From NCBI GenBank assembly GCA_029961055.1, contig JASBVM010000039.1:1-64000 (forward strand): 64,000 nucleotides of DNA, in the 5' to 3' direction. Under the pieces are notes generated by a model that was not told the origin of the DNA, made no database searches, and saw only the letters and a list, made by a program, of their open reading frames with translations. The stretch's first letter is position 1. Each line of letters opens with the position of its first letter. A program made the position numbers and the translations under genes. Below are positions 13,878 through 20,097 of the stretch, one piece after another. The stretch comes from Bacillota bacterium (GTDB lineage Bacteria > Bacillota > Sulfobacillia > JAIMAT01).

Positions 13878-14926
13878 CGGCCCTCCCGCACAAGGGTATG
13901 GTACACGCGCTCGTAGCCTTCCACCATCCGCTCCACCGTGAAGAAGGCCTCCACGCGGCGGCGGCAGGCCGCCCGGTCGATCAGCTCGATCCCGGCCAGG
14001 GCGCGGACGGCCGCCCCGATCACCTGTTCGTCCTCGCCGCCGGGGACCAACCGGCCCGTCACCCGGTCGGCCACCACCTCGGGGATGGAGCCGACGGCCG
14101 TCCCCACCACGGGCACGCCGCAGGCCATCGCCTCCACCATGGCGAGGCCGAAGGGTTCCGGCACCCGGTTGAGCTGGAGCAGGGCGAGCGCCTCCCCCAG
14201 GAAGCGGGCCTTCTCCGCCCCGCGCAGCTCGCCCGCGTACTCCACGCGCCCGCCCAGCTGCGGGCGGATCACCTGTTCGAAGAACTCGCGCTCCTCGGGA
14301 GGCACGGGTCCGGCCATGCGCAGGGGGAGGCCCGCGCGCCGCGCCACCGCCACCGCCCGGTCCGCTCCCTTCTTGGGGGAGATCCGCCCGTAGAAGGCCA
14401 GGTACCGCCCGGTCGCGGCCGCGAAGGGGAAGTCCTGGAGCCGGATCCCGTTGGGCACGTTGGCCACGTAGTGGAGCTCGGGCAGCCCCTCCCGCTCGGC
14501 CCGGCTGATGGAGACGTAGGGCAGCGCCGCGAACCGGCGGTAGACGACGCGGGTGGCCGGCTCCAGATAGGCCGAACCGTGGAGGGTGGTGACCACCGGC
14601 AGCGCCACGAAGGGCGTGAAGACCAGCGGGTGGCAGTTGAGGTGGTTGTGGAGGAGGTCGAAGCGGCCGCTCCGGGCCTCCTCGAAGGCGTGCGCCATGT
14701 GCAGGAGCTCCAGCTCGCGCGCGGGCAGCTCCGGGTGGGCGCCCAGGTGTTCGGGTACCACCGCCTCCAGGCGGCCTGCCGGGCGGCTGTCGCCGCTGGC
14801 GAAGACGGTCACCTCGTGGCCCCGGGCTGCGAGCCCCTCGGCCAGGTTGGCGACCACCTGTTCCCAGGGGCCGTACCCGTCGGGCGGCACCCTCCAGGTG
14901 ACCGGCGCCAAGAGTGCGATACGCAG
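13874..14926 (-). CDS. GT4-family glycosyltransferase
   Basis: A 350-residue GT-B fold retaining glycosyltransferase. The N-terminal motif APVTWRVPPDGYGPWEQVV with NLAEGLAARGHEVTVFASG forms the acceptor domain. The donor-binding domain has FYGRISPKKGADRAV and the EPFGLAMVEAMACGVPVVG block with the E-x7-E pattern typical of GT4. Conserved N-terminal sequence RIALLAPV continues upstream of the first TTG (14911) to a CTG at 14926, which has AAGGGGG about 10 bases before it; I take CTG as the start. The sugar donor cannot be told from sequence. It diverges from the nicotinamidase-like gene. Confidence 0.85.
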   Translation of the reverse strand: MRIALLAPVTWRVPPDGYGPWEQVVANLAEGLAARGHEVTVFASGDSRPAGRLEAVVPEHLGAHPELPARELELLHMAHAFEEARSGRFDLLHNHLNCHPLVFTPFVALPVVTTLHGSAYLEPATRVVYRRFAALPYVSISRAEREGLPELHYVANVPNGIRLQDFPFAAATGRYLAFYGRISPKKGADRAVAVARRAGLPLRMAGPVPPEEREFFEQVIRPQLGGRVEYAGELRGAEKARFLGEALALLQLNRVPEPFGLAMVEAMACGVPVVGTAVGSIPEVVADRVTGRLVPGGEDEQVIGAAVRALAGIELIDRAACRRRVEAFFTVERMVEGYERVYHTLVREGR

Positions 14927-15005
14927 AGGAGATCGCCCCCTTCGTGTCCAAAGCAGTATGGTCGAAGTTCACACGACCCGGTCGGGCTGGGAGGAGGGGA
15001 CGGCC

Positions 15006-15692
15006 GTGAGCCTCTCGGTCGAAACGCTGGTGGACGAGCGCTTCCTGGAGCACCTGGGCGCCTGGCAGTCGTCGCTCGCCTCGCGGCCGCTGGCCGAGCT
15101 GGTGGCCGAAGCCGGCGGGGCCGACCGCGTCGCCATCCTGGTGGTGGACATGATCCGCGGCTTCGCCACCGAGGGCCCCCTGGCCTCGCCCCGGGTGGCC
15201 GCGCTCTCCGCCCCCATCGCCCGCTTCCTGGAGCTGGCGCACGCGGCCGGGGTCCGCTCCATCTACCAGCTCTGCGACCACCACGATCCCGCGGCACGGG
15301 AGTTCGCCGCCTACCCGGCCCACTGCGTCCGCGGGAGCAGCGAGACCGAACTGGTGCCGGAGCTGGCCGGCCTTCCCTTCGCCGGCGAGTACCAGGTGGT
15401 GGCCAAGAACTGCCTCAGCTCCGTCTGGGCCGGCGACTGGTTCCCCGCAGCCGCCCATCGCTTCCGCCGCTTCGTGGTGGTGGGCGACTGCACCGACCTC
15501 TGCGTCTACCACACCGCCATGCCGATCAAGCTCTACCGCGACCAGCACCAGCTGGACTACGAGGTGCTGGTGCCGGCGCAGCTGGTCGACACCTACGACG
15601 CGCCGGACCACCCGGCCGACCTGTTCCACCGGCTCTTCCTCTACCACATGGCGCTCAACGGCGTGGTGGTGGTGCGGGAGCTGACCGCCTGA
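15006..15692 (+). CDS. Isochorismatase/nicotinamidase-family cysteine hydrolase
   Basis: The 228-residue protein has the catalytic triad of the cysteine hydrolase family: Asp in ILVVDMIRGF, Lys in VVAKNCLSSVW, and Cys in VVGDCTDLCVYHTAM (the second Cys is the nucleophile). A metal site is suggested by QLCDHHDP. The pattern fits a nicotinamidase (nicotinamide to nicotinate, NAD salvage) better than an isochorismatase, but the substrate is not certain. The GTG at 15006 has GGAGGAGGGG 6-10 bases upstream; an ATG at 14958 would add 16 residues without a site. Confidence 0.82.
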   Translation: MSLSVETLVDERFLEHLGAWQSSLASRPLAELVAEAGGADRVAILVVDMIRGFATEGPLASPRVAALSAPIARFLELAHAAGVRSIYQLCDHHDPAAREFAAYPAHCVRGSSETELVPELAGLPFAGEYQVVAKNCLSSVWAGDWFPAAAHRFRRFVVVGDCTDLCVYHTAMPIKLYRDQHQLDYEVLVPAQLVDTYDAPDHPADLFHRLFLYHMALNGVVVVRELTA

Positions 15693-15694
15693 GG

Positions 15695-15718
15695 GCGGGG
15701 GCGCTCCGCGGCCCCCGC
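15695..15718. terminator. Hairpin between convergent genes
   Basis: GCGGGGGC and GCCCCCGC form an 8-base stem around an 8-base loop. It starts 2 bases after the stop of the gene ending at 15692 and faces the HAD-prephenate dehydratase gene. There is no clear T-run. Confidence 0.4.
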
Positions 15719-15748
15719 GCGGTCGTCCTCGGCCTCTTCGCCTCCGCC

Positions 15749-17500
15749 TCAGGGGAGGGCGACCGGACCGGGAGGCTCCTCGGCTCTGTAGCTGCCCAGC
15801 TCCCGGTACCAGGTGGTCACCTCTCCCAGCTCGGCCAGAGCGCCGGCCAACGGCTCCCGCCGCCGGTCCCCGTCGGCGTCGACGAAGAAGAGCGCCTCCC
15901 AGGGGCGCCGCCGGTTGGGCCGTGACTCGAGCTTGGAGAGGTTGACCTGGCGGCGGGCGAAGACGCCCAACGCCCGCCAGAGGGCGCCCGGGGTGTGCTC
16001 GGTGGCCATGACCAGGGTGGTCTTCCAGCGCTCACCCGACGGGCGAGCGGACCCCCCCGGCCCGTCCGGCCCCGCGGCTCCCGCCCGGGCGGCGGACTCC
16101 GCGGCCTCGCGGCGGGCGATCACCCAGAAGCGGGTGGCGTTGTCCGGCCGGTCCTCCACGTTCTCCAGCAGGATCTCCAGCCGGTAGAGCGCCGCCGCCC
16201 TGCGCGAGGCCAGGACCCCGGTCTCGGCCAGCTCGGGCGGCAGCGGGACGCCCTCCCGGCCCACCCCCGCCCGGTCGGCGCGGCTGCGCAGCTCCCGGGC
16301 CGCGCCCGCCGTGTCCCGCGCCGCCACCGCCTCCCAGCCCCGGCTGCGGAGGCTCTCGGCGCACTGCGCCAGCGCCTGGGGATGGCTCAGCACCCGGCGG
16401 ATCGCCTCCAGGCGGGCCCCGGGCAGCGCCATCAGATGGTGGTGGATGGGCTGGTAGACCTCGCCGACGATGGCCACGTCGAACTCCAGGAAGCCGTCCA
16501 GCGTCTCCCCCACCGTGCCCGCGTAGGCGTTCTCCACCGGGACCAGGCCGTAGTCGGCGGTTCCCGCGGCGACGGCGGCGAAGACGTCGTGGACCGTCGG
16601 CCGGCCGGCGGTCTCGGCGCCGCTCCGCCAGGCGAGCGCGGCGGCCTCGCTGTGCGCCCCCGGCTCGCCCTGGTAGGCGATGAGGGGGCCCTTCGCGCTC
16701 TCCGGCTGCGGCTCCCGCTTCTGCGGCCGGCCCGCGGCCGGCGCCTCCCGGTCCGGGATCTCCCCGTCTCCCAGCATCGCCACCAGCTCCTCCAGCCGCT
16801 CGATCTCAGGCCAACCACCCGGTTCGCCCGGCCGGCCCGCCCCCTGCGGGCGGAACGCGCCCCGGTCGCCCGGGCGGAGGTAGCGGGCGAAGGCGACGCC
16901 GGCCGCCCGCGCCGCCCGCTCGTCCACCTCCGAGTCGCCGACGAAGAGCGCCTCCGACGGCGCCGCGCCCAGCCGTTTGCAGAGCGCCAGGAGCCCGTCG
17001 GGGCGGGGCTTCATGGCGGGCACGTCCTCCCTGCCCGCCACCGCGTCGAAGAGAGGCTCCAGGCCGGCCTCCTCCAGGACGCGCCGGACCGGTTCGCGCG
17101 CGTTGTTGGTCAGCACGGCCAGCCGGAGCCCCAACCCGCGCAGGCCGGAGAGCGCCGCCTCGAGGCCCGGGCTCCAGCGCAGGCGAGCCAGCCCCTCCGC
17201 CTCCGCCTCCTCCACCAGGGCGAGCAGCGCGGCCGAGAGCTCCGGGCGGCCGGCGGCCCGCTCCACGAGGAGCGGCAGCGGCGTGGAGACCGCCTCGTCC
17301 GGCGTCCCCTGCCAGAGTCCCTCCCGGCGGAGCCGCTCGGCCACCCGCCGCTTGACCGCGGGGAAGTCGATGCCCGTCTCCGCCAGGGTGTCGTCGAAGT
17401 CGAAGACGACCAGCCGGACGCGCTCCCGGCCGAGCCGGCGGGCGCCCAGACCGGGCGCCGGGCGCTTCTCCGCACCCGGCGCCGGATTCGGAGGTTCCAC
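15749..17500 (-). CDS. HAD phosphatase-prephenate dehydratase-ACT fusion protein
   Basis: One open frame of 583 residues joins two enzymes. Residues about 28-215 form a HAD hydrolase of the phosphoglycolate phosphatase type: motif I VVFDFDDTLAE, motif II VLTNN, motif III Lys in KPRPDGL, motif IV FVGDSEVDERAA. A linker (about 220-275) leads to prephenate dehydratase (about 276-470: IAYQGEPGAHSEAAAL, GLVPVENAYAGTVGETLD, and the catalytic Thr in NATRFWVIAR). A regulatory ACT domain (about 495-560, HTPGALWRALGVF and LSKLESRP) completes it, as in phenylalanine-inhibited PheA. Prephenate dehydratase converts prephenate to phenylpyruvate; the HAD substrate is unknown. The GTG start has AGGAAGGAG 11 bases upstream. 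Confidence 0.88.
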   Translation of the reverse strand: MEPPNPAPGAEKRPAPGLGARRLGRERVRLVVFDFDDTLAETGIDFPAVKRRVAERLRREGLWQGTPDEAVSTPLPLLVERAAGRPELSAALLALVEEAEAEGLARLRWSPGLEAALSGLRGLGLRLAVLTNNAREPVRRVLEEAGLEPLFDAVAGREDVPAMKPRPDGLLALCKRLGAAPSEALFVGDSEVDERAARAAGVAFARYLRPGDRGAFRPQGAGRPGEPGGWPEIERLEELVAMLGDGEIPDREAPAAGRPQKREPQPESAKGPLIAYQGEPGAHSEAAALAWRSGAETAGRPTVHDVFAAVAAGTADYGLVPVENAYAGTVGETLDGFLEFDVAIVGEVYQPIHHHLMALPGARLEAIRRVLSHPQALAQCAESLRSRGWEAVAARDTAGAARELRSRADRAGVGREGVPLPPELAETGVLASRRAAALYRLEILLENVEDRPDNATRFWVIARREAAESAARAGAAGPDGPGGSARPSGERWKTTLVMATEHTPGALWRALGVFARRQVNLSKLESRPNRRRPWEALFFVDADGDRRREPLAGALAELGEVTTWYRELGSYRAEEPPGPVALP

Positions 17501-17530
17501 CTGGAAACCGGCTCCTTCCTCGTCGGCGGC

Positions 17531-17794
17531 TCAGGCGCCCATGCGCTCGCTCTCCAGCGCCGCCAGCTCCTTGAGGCAGCTCTCGCAGACGGTCTTCCTC
17601 CGGAAGGTGGCCAGGTTCTCGTGCGAACCGCAGAAGACGCAGGAGACCTGGTACTTGCGGAGCACGATGGCGTCCTCGCGCAGGAAGATCTCCAACGGGT
17701 CGTGGAGCTGGATGTCCAGCGTGCGCCGGAGCTCGATGGGCAGCACGATCCTTCCCAGCTCGTCGATCTTGCGGACGATGCCCGTCGCCTTCAC
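17531..17794 (-). CDS. AbrB/SpoVT-type regulator with C-terminal zinc ribbon
   Basis: The N-terminal half of this 87-residue protein is a swapped-hairpin AbrB DNA-binding domain (KATGIVRKIDELGRIVLPIE, RRTLDIQLHDPLEIF). In place of the usual C-terminal module it has two Cys-x2-Cys pairs (CVFCG and CESCL), enough to bind one zinc ion. In spore-formers AbrB is a transition-state regulator and SpoVT acts in the forespore; the sequence does not decide between them. The GTG at 17794 follows GAGGAAG closely. The HAD-prephenate dehydratase fusion lies 30 bases downstream on the same strand and may be cotranscribed. Confidence 0.85.
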   Translation of the reverse strand: MKATGIVRKIDELGRIVLPIELRRTLDIQLHDPLEIFLREDAIVLRKYQVSCVFCGSHENLATFRRKTVCESCLKELAALESERMGA

Positions 17795-18139
17795 GCTTCC
17801 TCGCCCCCACGCCGCACAGGGAGCGGGCCTACGGAGCTCGTTCTCCCAGGCGCAGCCAGGAATGTCATCTCTCCACCAGCTTAACAGCAGATGGCGAACT
17901 GGCGCAAAGTGGCAATCCACCCCGCGAACCCAAAGAACTTGCCGGGAACCGGCTCCGGAGCCGCCTCGCCGCGGGGCCGGGCGGCCGCGCCCCCGGGGGA
18001 CACCGGGCGGCCCCCGGCGCCGCCCCACCGGGCGATTGCCACGCCACCCCCTCCACCCGATAATGCCTTCGAAGGAGTCGGGCCGGGCTCGGCCGTCCAG
18101 GACCGGGCGTGGACAGAGTGGACAGAAAGGTGAGTCGCC
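17795..18139. other. Divergent intergenic region, AbrB-type regulator/tatA
   Basis: This is the longest gap without a convincing gene (345 bases). It contains a good promoter for tatA (18036-18064) and, on the left, a slightly A+T-richer stretch (17870-17940) where the regulator's promoter should lie. I could not assign a sigma factor to it. An 80-codon frame at 17891-18133 is Pro/Arg-rich and has no ribosome binding site. Confidence 0.5.
18036..18064 (+). promoter_or_regulatory. Sigma-A promoter for tatA
   Basis: TTGCCA (18036-18041), a 17-base spacer and GATAAT (18059-18064) make a near-consensus vegetative promoter. Transcription would start about 70 bases before the tatA GTG. Confidence 0.6.
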
Positions 18140-18427
18140 GTGGGCAAAATCGGACCGATGGAGATCGTCATCATCCTGGTCATCGCGCTGGTGGTCTTCG
18201 GCCCCAAGCGGCTTCCGGAGCTGGGACAGGCCATCGGCCGCAGCATCCGGGAGTTCCGGCAGGCCACCCAGGGGCTGACCCACGAGGTGGTCGAGACCGC
18301 CCAGACCGTGACGGAGCCCGTCCAGGAGCTGAAGTCCAGCATCCTCCCCGCCTCCGGGGAAGCCGCCCGGGAGGGGGGCGCGGCCGGCGGCGGGAGCGCC
18401 GGCGGGCCCTCTTCGCCCGGCCGCTGA
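18140..18427 (+). CDS. tatA: Twin-arginine translocase subunit TatA
   Basis: TatA forms the oligomeric pore-like part of the Tat system, which exports folded proteins. The 95 residues have the classic layout: one short transmembrane helix (about 8-22, IVIILVIALVVFG), the FGPKRLPELG hinge, then an amphipathic helix (GQAIGRSIREFRQATQG) and an acidic-to-Gly-rich tail. The GTG start follows AAAGGTGA. It has its own promoter and a hairpin after it, so it is probably monocistronic. No tatC is in the window. Confidence 0.93.
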   Translation: MGKIGPMEIVIILVIALVVFGPKRLPELGQAIGRSIREFRQATQGLTHEVVETAQTVTEPVQELKSSILPASGEAAREGGAAGGGSAGGPSSPGR

Positions 18428-18472: not shown

Positions 18473-19372
18473 TCACCGGCGGGGGCGCTCGCGGCGCCCC
18501 CGTTCCAGTGCTGCGCGCCCCAGCTCCAGCTCCCGCTCGATCCGCTCCGGTTTGTACTCGTAGGCGAAGAGGAGGCCGTCGGCGTACCGGCCCGCCACCT
18601 CGACGGCGTGGGCGAGGCGCTTCTCCTCCACGTGCAGGGCGTAGAGCTCGACCAGGAGCGGCGCCCTCAGGACGTCCCGGAAGTCCCAGGCCAGCGTCTC
18701 CAGCCAGTAGGTGGTGGTGTACGCCAGGTCGTAGAGCGGCACCACGAAGGCGTCCACCAGCGGCGCCACCGCCGCCAGGTCGACGCCGAACCGCTCCCGC
18801 TGGTGCTCCGGCAGCGGGTCGGGGTAGAGGGTGAAGGTGAGGAGCGGTGCCTCGCCCGGCGCCGCGCGCCGGATCCGCTCCACCGCGCGGCGGGTGAAGT
18901 CGCTCAGGACCCCCGCCCGCCACTCCAGCCAGTCCAGCCCCGGCCGGTTGCGCCGCGCCCGGGCGTACTCCGCCTCGCAGTGCGGGCAGCGGCAGAACCC
19001 CTCGCGGGCGTAGTCGACGTCGTCCAGGCGGATGCCGGGGACGCCCGCCCGGGCCGCCTCCTCCAGGCGGTCCAGGAGGCGCGCCTGCACCTCCGGCCGC
19101 GAGGGACAGACGCTGTCCCAGTCGAAGAAGCTCGCCCCGCGCGCGGCGCGCAGCCCCTCGCCGTTGACCTGGACCCAGTCCGGATGCTCCGCCGCCAGCC
19201 GGTTGTCGCCGAAGCAGGAGATCATGGCGTGGGCGCCGGCCAGCGGCGGCTGTTCGAGCCCGCTCACGTCCTTCACTTCCAGGAAGGAGCCCGGGTACCG
19301 CTCGGCCAGCTTCCGATCCCGGGTGACCAGCGCCACCTCCGGCAGCTTCGCCCGCGCCGTCCCCCCGCTCAT
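18473..19372 (-). CDS. Putative glycoside-hydrolase-like TIM-barrel protein
   Basis: I cannot name a precise family for this 299-residue protein. The pattern is that of a (beta/alpha)8 hydrolase-like protein: HPDWVQVNGEG, then CPSRPEVQARLLDRLEEAAR, then GIRLDDVDYAREGFCRCPHC with an acidic pair after a strand and a Cys-x-Cys-x2-Cys group. Similar blocks occur in uncharacterised glycosyl-hydrolase-like proteins. Later strands include LLTFTLYPDPLP and AFVVPLYDLAYTTTYW. No signal peptide is seen, so it acts in the cytoplasm. Its ATG overlaps the creatininase stop by 4 bases, so the two are made together and may act in one pathway. Confidence 0.5.
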   Translation of the reverse strand: MSGGTARAKLPEVALVTRDRKLAERYPGSFLEVKDVSGLEQPPLAGAHAMISCFGDNRLAAEHPDWVQVNGEGLRAARGASFFDWDSVCPSRPEVQARLLDRLEEAARAGVPGIRLDDVDYAREGFCRCPHCEAEYARARRNRPGLDWLEWRAGVLSDFTRRAVERIRRAAPGEAPLLTFTLYPDPLPEHQRERFGVDLAAVAPLVDAFVVPLYDLAYTTTYWLETLAWDFRDVLRAPLLVELYALHVEEKRLAHAVEVAGRYADGLLFAYEYKPERIERELELGRAALERGRRERPRR

Positions 19373-20097
19373 CCCGTGGCCGCCTTCCAGGCGCGCAGCC
19401 GCTCGGCCAGGAGCCCGGAGACCACGCGGAGGATCTGCTCGCCCTTCTCCCGGGTGGCCAGGGTGGCGTCGCCCGACTGCGCCCAGCGGTACTCCTCCAG
19501 CGCGCCGCCCACCCGGTAGACGCGGACGCCCAGCGGCTGCTCGGGCCAGTGGACGTGCGCCCGGCTCATGTCGACGCGACGCTCGTCGATCGCCAGGAGG
19601 ACGGAGGTCTCGTCCTCGCCCGCGTGCCCCTGCCCCTGGCAGATGCGCCGGATCTCGGGGGCGAAGTCCAGCCACCAGGACCAGATCGCCACCTCGGCGC
19701 CGTGCTCCGCGATCGCCTCGGCCGCCCCCCGGAGCGCCCCGGTGTTGCCGCCGTGGCCGTTGAAGACGGCCAGCCGGCGGACCCCGCTCTCGGCGATGGA
19801 GGCACCCACCGCCGCCACGTAGGCACGGAAGACGTCGTCCGGCACGTTGACCGTCCCCGGGTAGACCGAGAGGTCCCAGGAGTGGCCGTACGGGATGGGC
19901 GGGTAGACCATCACCCGGTCCTCCAGCAGCTCCGCCACCCGCCGGGCCAGCTCGACCGGCGCCAGGATGTCGGAGCCCAGGGGCAGGTGCTCACCGTGCG
20001 CCTCCAGCGAGCCCACCGGCAGAATCGCCAGGTCGGTGCTGCGGACCGCCTCGCGGAAGGCGGCCATCGTCGTCCAGAGCGTCTCGATCCTCGCCAC
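19369..20097 (-). CDS. Creatininase-family amidohydrolase
   Basis: The 242-residue protein has the metal-binding pattern of the creatininase family: GSLEAHGEHLPLGSD (Glu, His, Asp), VFNGHGGN (His) and AGEDETS (Glu). The family includes creatinine hydrolases, FAPy/formamide hydrolases and the mycofactocin peptidase MftE, so the substrate is open. The start is taken at the GTG (VARIETLW) at 20097, because longer readings add only Arg-rich sequence. It is translationally coupled to the TIM-barrel gene downstream and follows dCMP deaminase by 138 bases on the same strand. Confidence 0.85.
   Translation of the reverse strand: MARIETLWTTMAAFREAVRSTDLAILPVGSLEAHGEHLPLGSDILAPVELARRVAELLEDRVMVYPPIPYGHSWDLSVYPGTVNVPDDVFRAYVAAVGASIAESGVRRLAVFNGHGGNTGALRGAAEAIAEHGAEVAIWSWWLDFAPEIRRICQGQGHAGEDETSVLLAIDERRVDMSRAHVHWPEQPLGVRVYRVGGALEEYRWAQSGDATLATREKGEQILRVVSGLLAERLRAWKAATG

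Follow-up and report, generated by a model that had tools for sequence, protein, structure and literature searches.

A HAD-family hydrolase domain joined to prephenate dehydratase: an apparently undescribed, genus-restricted combination in Bacillota

Results

The stretch of DNA analysed here (the window; 64,000 nucleotides from contig JASBVM010000039.1 of a Bacillota bacterium of the class Sulfobacillia) carries on its minus strand, read from 17500 to 15749, a gene that joins a HAD hydrolase to a prephenate dehydratase (PDT) with an ACT domain (Table 1). Its GTG start is preceded by GGAAGGAG. A preliminary description, which gave no strand, had reported one unbroken 583-codon frame made of HAD, linker and PDT-ACT, and this is borne out: the frame holds no internal stop, and Pfam places all the domains on the same strand and in the same frame.

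An AbrB/MazE-type gene lies directly upstream, separated from the fusion gene by 30 nt. It is found upstream of the fusion in all three members of the genus, overlapping the fusion start in one of them (G002), and is present in a single copy in this genome. Judging by this arrangement, the two genes are probably co-transcribed as part of one operon. From 15500 to 18300 the coding strand showed no promoter-like site, and no Rfam family was found near the fusion gene. In the examined PDT loci of the rest of the class abrB does not stand beside pheA except in G018 (L051:1018-2358), where a more distant AbrB-like gene with a CxxC-CxxC tail is divergent from pheA.

Table 1. Features of the fusion locus and related loci
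Feature	Location	Strand	Remarks
HAD-PDT-ACT fusion gene, complete	15749..17500	minus	583 codons + stop, GTG start
HAD-IA hydrolase domain, helical C1 cap	16886..17410	minus	residues 31-205; Pfam (HAD_2, E 9.5e-27, above gathering score), alignment, model, fold matches
Linker	16688..16882	minus	residues 207-271; largely disordered, close to neutral, indels of whole codons
PDT domain	16106..16681	minus	residues 274-465; Pfam (PDT, E 3.3e-52, above gathering score), conserved columns
ACT regulatory domain	15824..15997	minus	residues 502-559; Pfam (ACT, E 1.7e-07, above gathering score); PGALW (504-508), ESRP (525-528)
Possible internal start, PDT-only product	16775..16793	minus	sequence only; all three species
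AbrB/MazE-type DNA-binding protein, CxxC-CxxC C-terminal part	17531..17794	minus	Pfam PF04014
Orthologue in G001	L083:8282-10015		fusion, uninterrupted
Orthologue in G002	L084:3437-5056		fusion, uninterrupted
aroH - DAHP synthase - tyrA - aroA cluster, without pheA	L168:6149-9881		G000 (this genome), contig C48

The N-terminal half matches HAD_2 with 94.7 bits (cut-off 23.8), and TIGR01509 and TIGR01549 also score above their cut-offs. The four motifs ascribed to it earlier are intact (D34/D36/T38, T131, K164 and D189/D193) and are conserved in an alignment with 19 other HADs; the second aspartate is what one expects in a phosphatase, not in a dehalogenase. In the predicted model of the domain (pLDDT 91.8) a helical C1 cap is seen. 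The four motifs, the position of the cap between motifs I and II and the score above cut-off place the domain in HAD subfamily IA.

Fold and sequence searches with the HAD half lead to phosphoglycolate-phosphatase-type and unassigned HAD-IA structures, the fold matches including MtlD (7ocn) and others. The phosphoglycolate-phosphatase type proposed in the preliminary description holds as a resemblance of fold and sequence, but not as a family assignment: TIGR01449 scores 81.6 bits against a strict cut-off of 180, a shortfall that says little because only one of 14 control genomes passes that cut-off. The genome contains no match above the strict cut-offs of TIGR01449 or SerB; its best phosphoglycolate-phosphatase-type match is the fused HAD itself, which we take as a lead only. 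We rejected a canonical phosphoglycolate phosphatase or SerB for want of a match above either family's strict cut-off in the genome, a result that bears on family membership and does not decide the substrate; none of the listed NCBIfam equivalog cut-offs is reached by the domain. It shares core, C1 cap and four motifs with TIGR01449-type HAD-IA structures (2yy6, 2hsz, 2hdo) and with GSU2069 (4rn3), but with only about 21-25% identity in fold alignments, a score far under the equivalog cut-off and the attachment to PDT. Its closest stand-alone relatives outside the genus, in G075 and G148, have the TNNA and R-D-D-x-x-A-x-KP stretches in common with it; their genes lie in unrelated neighbourhoods with no recognisable aromatic genes nearby.

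The C-terminal half matches PF00800 with 177.4 bits (cut-off 25.2). Residues E323-N324, S372-H373-P374, Q379, N454 and T456-R457-F458 are invariant or nearly so in 47 aligned sequences. The same alignment, together with alignments to PDB entries, shows the EN, SHPQ and TRF motifs followed by a C-terminal ACT domain with GAL and ESRP motifs; these PDT and ACT motifs are common to the fusion and 44 stand-alone PDTs and match the solved PDT 2qmx (E 7.5e-49). Monofunctional PheA (2qmx, 3mwb) consists of the same PDT and ACT domains with the same catalytic and ACT motifs, and identity to the stand-alone PDTs of the class is about 35-55%. The fusion differs from monofunctional PheA by its extra N-terminal HAD and in not reaching the NCBIfam equivalog cut-offs for PDT (PRK11898, 199.3 versus 219 bits; PRK11899, 217.4 versus 359 bits), although such a score does not define the PDT family. 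Since homology and motifs are clear while these scores fall short, we regard it as a somewhat divergent PDT.

The fusion protein is the sole PDT in the genome (a 96% complete assembly), and the aro cluster is located elsewhere, on contig C48; therefore the fusion most likely makes phenylalanine. No AroQ-type mutase (CM_2) was found in the fusion protein or in the genome. Provided that the route operates here as it does elsewhere among bacteria, prephenate from the C48 cluster must go through the fusion on its way to phenylalanine.

The full-length model has well-formed domains connected by a linker whose pLDDT drops below 50 at residues 219-228 and 247-267. This, with a pTM of 0.61, means that no fixed packing of the domains is predicted. 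The linker also contains the C-terminal helix of the HAD, RLEELVA.

The surrounding GC-rich DNA has many antisense frames, 400-1015 aa in length. In such DNA an open frame alone is weak evidence, so we relied on comparison within the genus. The fusion is unbroken and in a single frame in all three genus genomes (G000, G001 and G002), which are separate assemblies, with 76-78% identity, that is, 22-24% protein divergence. Close relatives interrupted by a stop or a frameshift would, according to the preliminary description, point to two separate genes; no such interruption was found in these three assemblies. Counted per domain by the Nei-Gojobori procedure across the three genomes, pN/pS is 0.34-0.41 for HAD, 0.17-0.28 for PDT and 0.22-0.41 for ACT, indicating purifying selection on each, and 0.73-0.99 for the HAD-PDT linker, which evolves nearly neutrally. 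Linker lengths differ among the three species by whole codons, and the GC bias by codon position persists across the linker. Conservation in three species together with purifying selection rules out a chance open frame. We conclude that this is a genuine fusion of two enzymes, which probably arose in the ancestor of the genus.

Among 154 genomes of the class, full-length clean matches to the fusion query were confined to the genus, the 151 further genomes containing no fusion; among the matches listed for a phylum sample of 399 genomes, no further one spanned the fusion. When about 85,000 species were scanned with a seed pattern, an approach that reaches close relatives only, the sole fusion returned was that of Bacillota bacterium Bu54 (JASBVS010000054.1), which matches G001. 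'Genus-restricted' is used here with reference to these searches, in which the phylum was sampled and not exhausted. Two candidates were discarded. A 'spanning' match in G143 (11-572) has a TAA inside, and what lies upstream in it belongs to a different protein, in which no HAD signal is seen. In G056 (L086) a 584-codon frame runs through PDT, its upstream part being antisense to a HAD gene, and is no fusion. The plasmid collection holds no record covering 80% of the fusion protein. No paper was found that combines 'prephenate dehydratase' with 'HAD hydrolase', and broader literature searches yielded only fusions with chorismate mutase, TyrA or DAHP synthase and none of HAD with PDT. The architecture had not been recognised in the preliminary description either, and the genomes and papers searched offer no other example.

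Discussion

HAD-PDT appears to be an undescribed, genus-restricted architecture that pairs two known families of enzymes. It adds a partner to the short list of PDT fusions, in which AroQ chorismate mutase, sometimes with prephenate dehydrogenase as well, is attached to PDT (PMC11237513; PMC10520331); in Shewanella a DAHP synthase pseudogene is joined to aroQ-pheA (PMC1173090). The P-protein (AroQ-PDT-ACT, E. coli PheA) likewise carries a second enzyme N-terminal of PDT-ACT, but there the partner is chorismate mutase, while here it is a HAD hydrolase and the mutase of this genome, an AroH, is encoded apart from it. The chorismate mutase-PDT-prephenate dehydrogenase of Archaeoglobus also has extra enzymes fused to PDT.

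Fusions of HAD phosphatases to metabolic enzymes are known from other pathways. The phosphatase part of HisB, for example, is a HAD. HisB is a bifunctional enzyme (PMC11237513), and in MtlD (PMC6291793) and the HAD-terpene cyclases (PMC12365925) a HAD is similarly joined to a metabolic enzyme. In all of these the phosphatase serves the pathway of its partner, whereas no such link is known for HAD-PDT.

The locus is probably best explained as a fusion of two enzymes, a PDT-ACT for phenylalanine synthesis and a largely independent, tethered HAD phosphatase that share their expression. Prephenate made with the separate AroH chorismate mutase would be converted to phenylpyruvate by the C-terminal PDT, on which phenylalanine may feed back through the ACT domain. 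The N-terminal half would be a putatively active phosphatase of the HAD-IA type that acts on a small metabolite carrying phosphate, held by a flexible linker and working largely independently of PDT. What is gained would then be common expression from an abrB-linked operon, and not channelling or joint allostery.

A rather unlikely variant is that the gene yields two products, the full-length HAD-PDT-ACT and a PDT-ACT begun at M242, leaving much of the PDT untethered. On the minus strand GGAGGAG (16787-16793) is followed after 9 nt by the in-frame ATG of M242 (16775-16777), a perfect Shine-Dalgarno arrangement kept in all three species within an otherwise diverging linker. This ATG stands 18-31 codons ahead of the PDT domain, and only four ATG codons occur in the fusion frame of the window. 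Yet the RLEELVAM stretch encoded here forms the helix that closes the HAD fold at its C-terminus, and Glu is written GAG in 57 of 60 cases, so that constraint on the protein and codon bias would by themselves be expected to give GAGGAG.

Under the preferred reading of a largely independent, tethered phosphatase the two halves are not coupled. That they are, with the HAD clearing a phosphorylated aromatic side product or intermediate, or with phenylalanine controlling the HAD via ACT, we consider unlikely. Fusions do usually join related functions, as in chorismate mutase-PDT and HisB (PMC11237513), and in two other lineages, G003 (L085:7304-9127) and G056 (L086:7487-9157), a HAD gene is placed head-to-head with pheA. 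Taking each genome to have about 7 to 10 HADs, and the PDT loci to number about 60, the chance expectation of such adjacency is roughly 0.2-0.5, against the two cases seen, which may point to a weak association. These HADs, however, look like other subfamilies than the fused one, the aro cluster is located elsewhere, and the closest HAD relatives outside the genus are away from aromatic genes. Control of both activities by the ACT domain, which the preliminary description had put forward, is not indicated by a disordered, nearly neutral linker and low-confidence domain packing.

More specific still, and highly improbable in our view, is a phosphatase of the shikimate route or of damaged metabolites that is tied both physically and, via ACT, allosterically to phenylalanine synthesis. 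Neither such joint control nor the repair of a shikimate-route metabolite, also proposed at the outset, receives support, because the closest relatives of the HAD beyond this genus are unfused and lie among unrelated genes. Finally, that two separate genes were joined by a sequencing or assembly error is effectively excluded: the genomes are draft assemblies and long spurious frames are frequent in GC-rich DNA, but the conservation of the join in three separate and diverged genomes, the pN/pS values, the whole-codon indels and the unbroken codon-position GC bias of the linker speak against it.

A fusion conserved in three species allows one to ask whether such a lineage-specific joining carries metabolic information or mere co-expression. 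If the HAD acts on a metabolite of the aromatic pathway, an unrecognised control or repair step would be involved; if it does not, the case would caution against inferring function from fusion.

Two further genes were noted around the locus. A frame at 18473-19675 on the minus strand, beside a creatininase-family gene, has no Pfam match at 1e-5. On the plus strand a gene for an isochorismatase-domain hydrolase (14586-15692) is convergent with the fusion gene, running towards its end, and in G002 a similar one (L084:5103-5651) comes after the fusion.
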